The notes under the pieces: generated by a model
The model's database searches: none
What the model was told of the DNA's origin: nothing
What the model saw: only the letters and a program-made list of their open reading frames with translations
Part shown: positions 1 to 4,443 of the stretch, piece by piece
Layout of the letters: each line of letters opens with the position of its first letter
Position numbering within the stretch: the first letter of the stretch is position 1
Position numbers and translations under genes: made by a program
From: Gammaproteobacteria bacterium
GTDB taxonomy: Bacteria; Pseudomonadota; Gammaproteobacteria; Tenderiales; Tenderiaceae
Length of the DNA: 48,652 nt
Assembly (NCBI GenBank): GCA_016200485.1
Contig: JACQEP010000007.1
Coordinates: forward strand, 1 to 48,652
Reading direction: 5' to 3'

Positions 1-148
1 GGCGAATAGGGCGGGAGGCCAATCTACAGCACAGGCTCTGGTTAAAAACCAGTCCTCAGGAGCGGACGGCCTTCCCGGTGAAGCGTGTAATCTTACTTAA
101 CCTCCTCAACAACATTTTCATTAAAATCGATCATACAAGGAGCGGCGT

Positions 149-1399
149 ATGACAACCGCGCACGCCTTGGAACAACATCTACTGGAACAGATCGTCACCC
201 GCGACAACCTTACCCGTGCATGGAAGCGCGTGAAGGCGAACAAGGGTGCGGCCGGTGCAGACGCGATCACCGTGAAGGATTTTCCGACATGGGCCCGTGA
301 GCATTGGCCGAACATCAAAGCCCAGTTATTGGCCGGTGACTATCAACCGACCGCGGTCCGCCGCGTATGGATACCCAAGCCCAACGGCGACAAACGCCCG
401 TTGGGCATTCCATGCATTGCGGATCGTGTCATCCAACAAGCCATCGCGCAAGTGCTAACACCGATCTACGAGCCGCTGTTCAGCGACCACAGTTACGGTT
501 TTCGACCCGGTCGAAACGCGCATCAAGCCGTCAGGCAAGTGCGCGAAGACATCCGCTCAGGGAATCGCATCGTGGTCGACATTGACCTGGCGGCATTCTT
601 CGACAGCGTCAACCATGACGTGCTGATGCGGTTGCTTGCAAAGCGCGTACGGGATAAACGTGTGTTGAAGCTGATCGGACGGTACTTGCGTGCAGGCATC
701 GTTATCGAAGGTGTGAAACATCCCACGCCACTCGGAGTCCCCCAGGGCGGACCACTTTCACCGTTGCTCGCCAACATTATGCTGCACGAACTGGACGTTT
801 ACCTGCAACAGCAGAACCGTTCGTTCGCACGCTACGCCGATGACTTTGTCATCTGCGTCAGAAGCGTGTCGGCAGCGCGGCGCGTGAAAGCCAACGTCAC
901 GCGGTTCCTCGAGAAGCGTCTAAAGTTGCGCATCAACGATGACAAGAGCCGAATCGTACCGAGCAAGCAGTTGGAGTTTCTCGGGTTTTGTTTCCGGGGA
1001 ACAAAGATTGCGTGGTGCGATAAGGCGCTTCTGCGTTTCAAGCATCGTGTTCGCCAACTCACCGGACGTTCGTGGGGCGTAAGCCTAAATTATCGCCACC
1101 GCGAACTTCGGCAATACATCACGGGTTGGATGAACTATTTTTCGCTATCGGAATACTACCGGCCGATCCCAGAACTCGATGAATGGTTACGGCGGCGCAT
1201 GCGGATCAGCCATCTGGTGAGTCTTGGTGTCAGCCTGAAGGAAGCGATCAAAACTGGCGTCAGCTCGAAAGGGCCCTACGCCATGTCGCGCACACCGATC
1301 ACGCAAATGGCGATGAACAATGAGTGGTTAAAAGCACAGGGCTTGGTGTCGATCAAAGACCAGTGGGTACGTTTTCATTATCCTATTTCAACCGCCTAG
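149..1399 (+). CDS. Group II intron reverse transcriptase/maturase
   Basis: The intron-encoded protein, 416 aa, which helps splicing and copies the intron RNA into DNA at the target. The reverse transcriptase palm is clear: VVDIDLAAFFDSV near residues 142-154 holds the first catalytic aspartate, GVPQGGPLSPLLANI lies at about 196-210, and YADD sits at 229-232. A maturase (GIIM) domain follows at about 315-355 with the pattern RELRQYITGWMNYF. There is no HNH endonuclease domain after it, which fits class C introns. The start ATG at 149 follows an AAGGAGCGG ribosome site at 137-145. The last codons (ACC GCC TAG) are also the first bases of domain V, so coding sequence and ribozyme overlap. All expected motifs are intact, so it may be active. 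Confidence 0.95.
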   Translation: MTTAHALEQHLLEQIVTRDNLTRAWKRVKANKGAAGADAITVKDFPTWAREHWPNIKAQLLAGDYQPTAVRRVWIPKPNGDKRPLGIPCIADRVIQQAIAQVLTPIYEPLFSDHSYGFRPGRNAHQAVRQVREDIRSGNRIVVDIDLAAFFDSVNHDVLMRLLAKRVRDKRVLKLIGRYLRAGIVIEGVKHPTPLGVPQGGPLSPLLANIMLHELDVYLQQQNRSFARYADDFVICVRSVSAARRVKANVTRFLEKRLKLRINDDKSRIVPSKQLEFLGFCFRGTKIAWCDKALLRFKHRVRQLTGRSWGVSLNYRHRELRQYITGWMNYFSLSEYYRPIPELDEWLRRRMRISHLVSLGVSLKEAIKTGVSSKGPYAMSRTPITQMAMNNEWLKAQGLVSIKDQWVRFHYPISTA

Positions 1400-1459
1400 T
1401 GCGGACCCGCATGCTAGGTGGTGTGGGGAGCGCCGGAGAAATACCGGCGCTTACCCGAT
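1391..1459 (+). ncRNA. Group II intron domains V and VI
   Basis: Bases 1391-1422 form a domain V fold: a 9-bp lower helix (ACCGCCTAG with CTAGGTGGT, one G-U pair), a two-base bulge TG on the 3' side, a 4-bp upper helix (TGCG with CGCA) and a four-base loop GACC. The CGC at the 5' side sits where the catalytic triad is expected. Bases 1423-1459 form domain VI with an AGCGCCGG/CCGGCGCT stem and flanking GGG/CCC pairing. The unpaired adenosine used for branching is probably in the 3' strand near 1453, but this was judged only by eye. Confidence 0.8.
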
Positions 1460-1871: not shown

Positions 1872-2855
1872 ATGCCAAAAATAAATACTTCTTCCCCGGC
1901 GCCGCGCTTGTTGGATCAGGTGACCGCCAAAATCCGTCTAAAACACTACAGTATTCGTACTGAGCAGGCGTATGTAGATTGGATTAGACGATACATTAAA
2001 TTTCATGGGGTACGCCACCCTTCTGAGATGGGGGCGCAGGAAGTGGAGCGGTTTCTGACGCATTTGGCGGTGGAGGGCAAGGTGGCGGCTTCGACACAGA
2101 ATCAGGCGAAGTCGGCGATATTGTTTTTGTACCGTGAGGTGCTGGGGCAAGAGTTGCCGTGGCTGGATAATGTAGAACAGGCTAAGGCGCCGAAGCGTTT
2201 GCCGGTGGTGTTGACGCGGGAGGAAGTGCATGGCGTGTTGTCGCGGCTGTCGGGCCATTATTGGCTGATGGGCAGTCTGCTTTACGGCGCGGGTTTGCGC
2301 TTGATGGAATGTGTGCGTTTGCGGGTGAAGGATGTTGATTTCGGCCAGCGGCAGATTCTGATTCGTGATGGCAAGGGTTTCAAGGATCGGGTGACGATGT
2401 TGCCGGAGGCGTTGAAGGTGCCGTTGCGTCAGCATCTTGAACAAGTGAAAGCGCAGCACGCGCAGGATTTGGCCAAGGGCGGTGGTGGCATCTATTTGCC
2501 ATACGCGCTGGAAAAGAAGTATCCGAACGCGGCGCGGGAATGGGCCTGGCAGTATATGTTTCCAGCGAGCGATGTTTCAGAAGATCCGCGTAGCGGTATT
2601 GTGCGGCGTCATCACATCAATGAACAAAATTTGCAGCGAGCGATGAAGCAGGCGGTGCGCGACGCAGGTTTGAGTAAGCCAGCGACCCCGCATACCTTGC
2701 GGCATTCATTTGCGACGCATTTGCTGCAAGGCGGTTATGATATTCGCACCGTTCAAGAGTTGTTGGGTCACGCAGATGTTTCAACGACGATGATTTATAC
2801 CCATGTGCTGAATCGCGGTGGCAAGGGAGTGTTGAGCCCGTTGGACGGATTGTGA
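1872..2855 (+). CDS. intI: Integron integrase IntI
   Basis: A tyrosine recombinase of 327 aa that inserts and excises gene cassettes at attI and attC sites. The N-terminal SAM-like DNA-binding domain covers about residues 14-98 and the catalytic domain about 110-320. Catalytic residues are R143 (in [12 protein letters not shown]), H274 and R277 (HTLRH), H300 (LLGHAD) and nucleophile Y309 (MIYTH). The IntI-specific extra segment is present at about 213-250, including [17 protein letters not shown] and [11 protein letters not shown], separating it from XerC/D. The frame is intact. It is transcribed away from the cassette, as in typical integrons, and stops 13 bases before mnmE. No clear LexA operator is seen. 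The start ATG is the one at the end of the third CATCCTAA repeat. Confidence 0.95.
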
Positions 2856-2868
2856 TCAGGGCGTTGCC

Positions 2869-4215
2869 ATGTCGTTAGTGATCGATACCATCGCTGCCAT
2901 TGCAACGCCGCCCGGCCGTGGCGGGGTCGGCATCGTGCGAGTCTCTGGCCCGCGCGCAAAAGTGATTGCGGAAGAAATGCTCGGCACTTGCCCGCCGCCA
3001 CGAGAAGCGAAATTATTACCCTTTAAAGATGCCGATGACAGCGCCATTGATTACGGCATTGCACTCTATTTTAAAGCGCCCCACTCCTACACCGGCGAAG
3101 ATGTGTTGGAATTGCAAGGCCACGGCGGGCCGGTGGTGATGGATTTGTTATTGCAGCGCACGCTGGTGCTGGGTGCGCGTCTGGCGCGGCCTGGCGAATT
3201 TTCAGAGCGCGCGTTTCTGAATGACAAGCTTGATCTGGCGCAGGCGGAAGCAATTGCCGATTTGATCGATGCGAGTTCAACGCAAGCGGCGCGTTCTGCG
3301 CTGCGTTCGTTGGAAGGTGAATTTTCGGCGCGAATTCATTCGCTGGTGGAGCAGCTGACGGAGGCGCGGATTTACGTTGAGGCGGCGATTGATTTCCCCG
3401 AAGAAGAAATCGATTTTCTGCAAGACAGTGATCTCTCGCAACGCATTGATGGCATCGTTAACGAAATGAATGCCGTGACGGCCGCGGCGCGACAGGGAAG
3501 TTTATTGCGCGAAGGCATGCATGTGGTGATTGCCGGGCAACCGAATGCGGGCAAGTCGTCATTGCTCAATTGCCTGGCTGGGCGTGAGGCGGCGATTGTG
3601 ACTGATATTCCCGGGACGACGCGTGATGTGTTGCGCCAGGAAATTGTGATCGACGGTTTGCCGTTACACATTATCGACACCGCAGGCTTGCGTGAATCCG
3701 AAGATGTGGTCGAGAAAATCGGTATCGCCCGCGCCTGGGACGAAATCAATCGCGCCGATCGCGTGTTGTTGGTGGTGGATGCGCGCCAGGGCGTAACGTC
3801 TGCCGACCGCGACATCCTCGCCCGCTTGCCGGAGCGGTTGCCGCTGACGGTGATTTATAACAAGGTGGATCTTGCGGGTACAGCGCCGAGTGAACGGCGC
3901 GGTGAGCTTGGCACTGAAATTTTGCTTTCAGCGTTAAGCGGTGCCGGCATTGAATTATTGCGCCAGCATTTAAAAGAAAGCATCGGCTATCAGGCCAGTG
4001 AAGGCAGCTTCATCGCCCGCCGCCGCCATCTGGATGCTTTGCAGCGGGCGCATACACATATCGAAACCGCCCGTACCCAACTACAACAGCGTGCCGGTGA
4101 ACTGCTGGCCGAAGAATTACGCCAGGCGCAGCAGGCGTTGAGCGAGATTACGGGGGAATTTAGTTCCGACGACCTCTTGGGGCGAATTTTTAGCAGTTTT
4201 TGTATTGGGAAGTGA
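2869..4215 (+). CDS. mnmE: tRNA uridine-5-carboxymethylaminomethyl modification GTPase MnmE
   Basis: MnmE works with MnmG to modify U34 in the wobble position of several tRNAs, using GTP and a folate carrier, in the cytoplasm. The protein has 448 aa, close to the usual 454. The N-terminal folate-binding domain covers about 1-118. The inserted G domain shows the P-loop GQPNAGKS (223-230), the IPGTTRD switch region (247-253), DTAG (270-273) and an NKVD specificity motif. The C-terminus ends in FCIGK, with the conserved cysteine. It follows intI by 13 bases and has only a weak ribosome site (CAGGGCG), so it may be read partly from intI or from a promoter inside intI. It is separated from mnmG by about 14.8 kb. 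Confidence 0.98.
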
Positions 4216-4296
4216 TAGTTTGCGGCCATTAGCAGCTTATTGGCAGAAATTAGCGTCAAATTCGACGAAATTCGCTAGCGATAAGTTTTAATCAAT

Positions 4297-4325
4297 ATTT
4301 ATCAATTTTAAAGAAGTTGATAAAT
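4297..4325. repeat. Inverted repeat downstream of mnmE
   Basis: Arms ATTTATCAA (4297-4305) and TTGATAAAT (4317-4325) with an 11-base loop. There is no T tract, so termination is uncertain. Confidence 0.55.
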
Positions 4326-4336
4326 GGCGCTCAAGT

Positions 4337-4371
4337 CTTGCAAATTGTAAATTCAATTGCCAATTTGCAAG
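4337..4371. repeat. Inverted repeat downstream of mnmE
   Basis: Arms CTTGCAAATTG (4337-4347) and CAATTTGCAAG (4361-4371) form an 11-bp stem with a 13-base loop. Function unknown. Confidence 0.6.
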
Positions 4372-4404: not shown

Positions 4405-4433
4405 GTAGGGGCGGGTTTAAAACCCGCCCCTAC
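4405..4433. repeat. REP-like palindrome
   Basis: GTAGGGGCGGGTTT and its complement are separated by a single base, a 14-bp near-perfect hairpin between mnmE and a convergent gene. Related palindromes beginning GTAGGG occur at 14707-14734 and 36098-36127, which suggests a dispersed family. It may also act as a bidirectional terminator. Confidence 0.7.
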
Positions 4434-4443
4434 CGGAAAATCA

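Follow-up and report, generated by a model that had tools for sequence, protein, structure and literature searches.

A group IIC-attC intron, probably a relic, in the first cassette of a chromosomal integron, joined to the end of an IS110-family insertion sequence

The start of contig C7 carries what is, with a probability of about 90%, a damaged group IIC-attC intron, located in the attC site of the first cassette of a chromosomal integron and later hit by an IS110-family element. The window (the whole stretch of DNA analysed) is the first 48,652 bases of this contig, in a genome of 25 contigs. The 3' part of the intron occupies positions 141–1459 on the + strand; the preceding 140 bases are the left end of the insertion sequence (IS).

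The integron in which the intron lies consists of three adjoining parts: (i) an integrase gene, intI (1872–2855, + strand), whose 327 aa product is an integron-type tyrosine recombinase (494 bits against TIGR02249, cut-off 265), (ii) an attI region between intI and the first cassette (1757–1871), and (iii) the first cassette itself. The 5' boundary of the cassette is a core site, G|TTAGACCTCAC, at the attI junction (1745–1756, − strand), with the GTTAGAC core at 1756–1750. The open reading frame (ORF) of the cassette (90 aa; 1466–1738, − strand) gave zero matches in searches of Pfam and NCBIfam. The same genome contains a second integron remnant on contig C5 (C5:1–1540; L116), in which an attI 82% identical to that of the window is not followed by intI, the first-cassette ORFs lie on the − strand, and the 3' half of an intron is present. 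At C11:56046–56614 lies another integron integrase gene, which is broken and contains several in-frame stops.

The intron-encoded protein is a reverse transcriptase/maturase (RT) of 416 aa (149–1399, + strand). It scores 401 bits against TIGR04416 and contains RVT_1 (PF00078) and GIIM (PF08388) domains; these three are its only family matches, as for a class C intron RT/maturase without an endonuclease domain. A YADD motif is present, and the best match in the PDB is the GsI-IIC RT (6ar1), to which nearly the whole protein aligns (392 bits). A close relative comes from a gammaproteobacterial metagenome-assembled genome, nzgw582 (JAHFRV010000005.1; hereafter L026), and its RT is 84% identical to that of the window. 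In a tree of a small sample of 13 RTs the two are paired (99/100), while the deeper order with respect to the integron introns is weakly supported. When 95 related genomes were searched at the DNA level, the intron had no more than weak relatives among them.

Neither the gathering thresholds of Rfam nor relaxed ones gave a match to a group II or any other RNA, and the 3' RNA domains were therefore examined by folding and by comparison with relatives. Both class C-type domains are found at the 3' end of the intron, on the + strand. Domain V (1391–1422, 5' strand ACCGCCTAG) has the sequence ACCGCCTAGTGCGGACCCGCATGCTAGGTGGT, predicted to fold into a hairpin of 13 pairs with a two-base bulge; domain VI is a stem-loop, GCGCCGG...CCGGCGC (1430–1450, stem 1430–1436/1444–1450), and TTACCCGAT spans from it to the 3' splice site at 1459. 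In an alignment of 13 relatives, 92% of the domain V/VI cells are paired, and both sides have changed in 7 of the 20 pairs. Double changes occur in 25 cells, compared with 7.5 in shuffles, and the covariation signal is gone when the pairing partner is shifted by one to three columns. The RT and the two RNA domains that a first-pass annotation had read from the DNA are thus borne out by profile score, folding and covariation. The same annotation had pointed out that the RT gene overlaps domain V with its final two codons and its stop, and indeed ACC GCC TAG (1391–1399) forms part of the domain V 5' strand, an overlap of 9 nt. The stop lies at the same place in the C5 copy and, in a disturbed frame, within the same domain V strand in L026. 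In more distant relatives (the plasmid introns, and also L010 and L011) the RT stop precedes domain V; the overlap is therefore a nine-base peculiarity of the small clade to which the window belongs, and its candidacy as a general or regulated feature was dropped.

The intron ends with CCCGAT|TAGACC at 1459|1460, and the nature of this border is revealed by the cassette beside it. An integrated cassette starts, past the G of the core site, with bases complementary to its own R'' box at the opposite end. Here TAGACCTCAC, the ten bases that follow the intron, is exactly the reverse complement of the visible cassette start (its first ten bases, 1745–1754), and the only other occurrence of this 10-mer in the 48.6 kb window is that cassette start. 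On the cassette strand, the bases abutting the intron read GTGAGGTCTA, while the cassette starts TTAGACCTCAC at the attI junction; the complementarity thus covers 10 bp as visible, or 11 with a presumed T. Positions 1460–1465 (− strand, GGTCTA) are accordingly the remnant of an attC R'' box, exactly complementary to the cassette start, which a 5' exon ending in GT would complete to GTCTAAC. The same relationship is read from the sequence at two other loci: on C5 the cassette starts TTAGCCG and the intron border reads CGGCTA, and in L026 the start is TTGGGCTTCA and the border TGAAGCCCA. Since the border complements the cassette start in all three, the intron is placed in the R'' box, on the bottom strand of the attC, and runs antisense to the cassette. 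The exact complementarity of the ten bases from 1460, which recur only at the cassette start, shows that the match of TAGACC to a core site is not chance. The first-pass annotation had placed the end of the intron at an integron core, in the orientation opposite to the cassette; with the border at 1459 followed by TAGACC, the intron on the + strand and the cassette ORF on the − strand, both statements hold. Complementarity between border and cassette start is a simple test by which an attC is recognised despite the loss of its other half.

The other half is absent here: 5' splice site, 5' exon and remaining attC are all missing from the window and from every contig of the genome. What they may have looked like is indicated by L026, where the intron is complete (2517–4350) and lies in an attC hairpin, TTGT|GTACG...CCGAT|TGGGC. 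Its 5' exon ends in GAAGCGGTTGT and its 3' exon starts TGGGC, the intron between them running from GTACGCCCAGCATGGGC to CCCGAT. The 5' junction reads GCGGTTGT|GTACGCCC and lies in an attC-like hairpin; the joined exons give GTTGGGC, and are predicted to fold into a long hairpin. ACAA, the complement of TTGT, occurs once in the 5' RNA of L026, at intron position 171. Introns in plasmid class 1 integrons share the GTACGCCC start, preceded by TTGT or CTGT, and end CCCGAT|TA. The intron family of the window, as seen in L026 and the plasmid introns, begins GTACG; the GUGCG-type 5' end foreseen in the first-pass annotation is in this respect incorrect. Its central proposal, a group IIC-attC intron in the attC site of a cassette, is supported by the IIC-type RT, the kinship with integron introns, the TAGAC 3' exon complementary to the cassette start and the complete attC 5' exon of L026. 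A genome search with the 5' part of the L026 intron returned only a degenerate, internally deleted copy of the family that retains part of domain I (C16:292019–292640). A further piece of the family, a 5'-truncated 3' fragment, lies at C4:1849–2041.

The L026 and plasmid introns agree with how group IIC-attC introns are described in the literature: they insert at TTGT/T of the R'' box, in the attC bottom strand, and point against the direction in which the cassettes are transcribed (PMC7923331; PMC4424553). Ordinary group IIC introns insert after transcription terminator hairpins (PMC4424553), and the window intron could in principle be one of these, situated by chance beside a TTAGAC sequence. 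This is highly improbable, given that the 3' flanks in the window, C5 and L026 are all core-site-like and lie beside cassette ORFs behind attI, and that the relatives of the intron are integron introns. A stronger contender, if still an unlikely one, concerns the route: the intron may have arrived in the attC when the integron was duplicated, or when intron copies underwent homologous recombination, rather than by retro-insertion. The second attI-like region and intron copy on C5, which share sequence with the window, speak for such an origin, as does a published recombination model cited in PMC7923331, whereby a gene and an attC are united through IIC-attC introns. However, the first cassettes of the window and C5 differ, and each intron border complements the cassette start of its own locus, which fits insertion into an existing attC.

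The intron was originally drawn as extending from position 1 to 1459. The analysis supports this extent for 141–1459 and contradicts it for 1–140, which is the left end of an IS110-family insertion sequence with a predicted bridge RNA (− strand). The 1–140 sequence is repeated at six other contig ends of the same genome, with identity over at least 134 bp at C10e, C17s, C17e and C20s, and over 119 bp at two contigs that begin further inside the element, C1s and C25e. Each copy stops at CATACAAGG, beyond which the sequences are unrelated and consist mostly of REP-like palindrome ends. A stretch 74% identical to 1–140 also occurs in another genome (G257; L100), where the transposase downstream of it (344 residues, with PF01548 and PF02371) places this complete element in the IS110 family. 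Its right end (...CAGAGTATCTAC) matches contig ends C12s, C13s, C22s, C22e, C2s and C6e, where the coding part finishes RKLLHAIHGMLKDNKPFDNTRFYAIPA. The six unrelated contexts, together with the 74% identical left end beside an IS110 transposase, identify 1–140 as an IS110 left end; the characteristics of the family (a DEDD transposase and a long non-coding left end) are seen through the L100 element, with its left end and transposase, and through the matching right ends elsewhere in the window's genome. The transposase of the element at 1–140 would be expected beyond the contig, leftward, on the − strand. A plasmid search with the DNA of 1–146 gave no match. An IS110 element on C24 was considered as the source of 1–140 and rejected, because its ends differ.

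The competing view is that 1–140 is domain I of the intron itself, which would then be intact apart from the contig break. Contig breaks within introns are common, and motifs in 1–140 such as GCGAATAGGGCGGGAGGCC and GGAGCGGACGGCC may bear a superficial resemblance to group IIC domain I. This view is refuted by the copies at the six other contig ends, each of which runs to CATACAAGG and then into unrelated sequence, and retains next to no probability; the similar sequence in G257 is joined to an IS110 transposase, and the 484 nt of RNA that precede the ORF in L026 differ from 1–140. With 1–140 assigned to the IS, the part of the intron contained in the window starts at about 141 and shows almost no RNA ahead of its ORF, the 5' half being missing. 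Because the contig starts inside the IS, the 5' half of the intron and the rest of the attC would lie beyond it.

The junction between IS and intron, AGG|AGCGGCGT (138–148, + strand), lies just ahead of the RT start codon ATG, such that the IS interrupts the intron at the Shine-Dalgarno of the RT gene. A Shine-Dalgarno-like AAGGAG is retained there, while the L026 intron has AGTGAGGTCCGGCGTATG at this place. An 8-mer in the IS left end, AGGAGCGG as read on the + strand (58–65, feature on the − strand), recurs at the insertion flank (138–145). In G257, the place homologous to 58–65 reads AGGCTC, and so does the insertion flank. Such a repeat is what a target guide would give, but it is at most suggestive, because AGG belongs to the IS end itself, which leaves five informative bases here and three in G257. 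The two ends of the IS, as read from the sequence, fit a CT core. Many contig breaks in the genome are due to one IS110-family element, mostly at the ends of REP-like palindromes (CC|TAC); a REP-like palindrome of the kind targeted by this element elsewhere in the genome, GTAGGGGCGGGTTTAAAACCCGCCCCTAC, is present in the window at 4405–4435. The contig ends overlap by 141 bases, as in a k-mer assembler, which implies reads running from the IS end into the RT gene. Positions 1063–1203 of the window are shared exactly with contig C5; bases 1–1203 may therefore be a collapsed two-copy repeat, of which either copy could carry the IS.

The RT gene carries a second lesion. Relative to the C5 copy and L026, 39 nt are deleted in frame at 1203..1204 (+ strand), removing about CCYWKQWRWPRTK from domain X/D; the 13 conserved residues that are gone from the window RT are kept in both of the other copies, including the RT C-terminus preserved on C5. 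The deletion may well have cost the protein its maturase or DNA-binding function, and the window copy is, on the sequence, most likely a relic as far as mobility is concerned. Two possibilities would give the damaged copy a continuing role. One is that the IS110 insertion activates the RT gene by supplying a promoter or Shine-Dalgarno, the working RT then acting in trans on other copies. The restoration of AAGGAG a few bases before the ATG favours this, whereas the 13-residue deletion argues against it, as does the outcome of a scan of the + strand of 1–148, in which no sigma-70-like promoter was found; we give it little credence. The other, equally doubtful, is that the IS split the intron at domain IV and that the intron still works in pieces, by trans-splicing or through a junction-made RT serving other copies.

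The events that best account for the arrangement would be the following. By probable retro-insertion, a group IIC-attC intron came to lie in the attC bottom strand of the first cassette, entering at TTGT|T of the R'' box, where an EBS1 of ACAA would pair with an IBS1 of TTGT and the attC hairpin would serve as the recognised stem-loop. This insertion would have left the intron antisense to the cassette, parting the cassette ORF from the remaining attC. An IS110-family element, whose bridge RNA probably steers it to REP-like palindrome ends, would afterwards have entered a similar sequence just upstream of the RT start codon, and the RT would have lost its 13 residues of domain X/D. The outcome is three nested mobile systems: an RNA-guided insertion sequence in a retro-intron in an integron cassette site. 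The intron type is already known, and the window copy is a new, probably defective example of it. It is a further group IIC-attC intron from beyond the class 1 integrons of clinical settings, and both a second copy in its genome and a close relative show the same target.

One of the closest known systems is L026. It shares with the window domains V and VI and the location in the attC of the first cassette after attI; the order attI, first cassette, intron is also that of the C5 copy. Unlike the window copy, L026 is 5'-complete and without an IS, and its RT frame is disturbed near the C-terminus. The IIC-attC introns of class 1 integrons (S.ma.I2 type; plasmid copies L105, L106 and L107) have RTs about 50% identical to that of the window and, as in the kind to which the window belongs, start GTACGCCCAGCATGGGC, end CCCGAT|TA, use a TTGT|T-like target and lie antisense to the cassettes. 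The window copy differs from them in residing in a chromosomal integron, in having its RT stop codon inside domain V, and in the loss of its 5' half (to the IS110 insertion or beyond the contig end) and of 13 RT residues. The GsI-IIC RT is likewise a group IIC RT/maturase, but keeps the QWLQWKRVRTR segment that the window RT is without. Finally, the element at 1–140 is akin in its insertion behaviour to IS621, a member of the IS110 family whose targets are REP elements (PMC11208160). With IS621 and other REP-targeting kin it has in common an IS110 transposase, a long non-coding left end and insertion at the ...CCTAC ends of repeated palindromes (PMC11208160); it is distinct from IS621, and one of its copies here landed in an intron.
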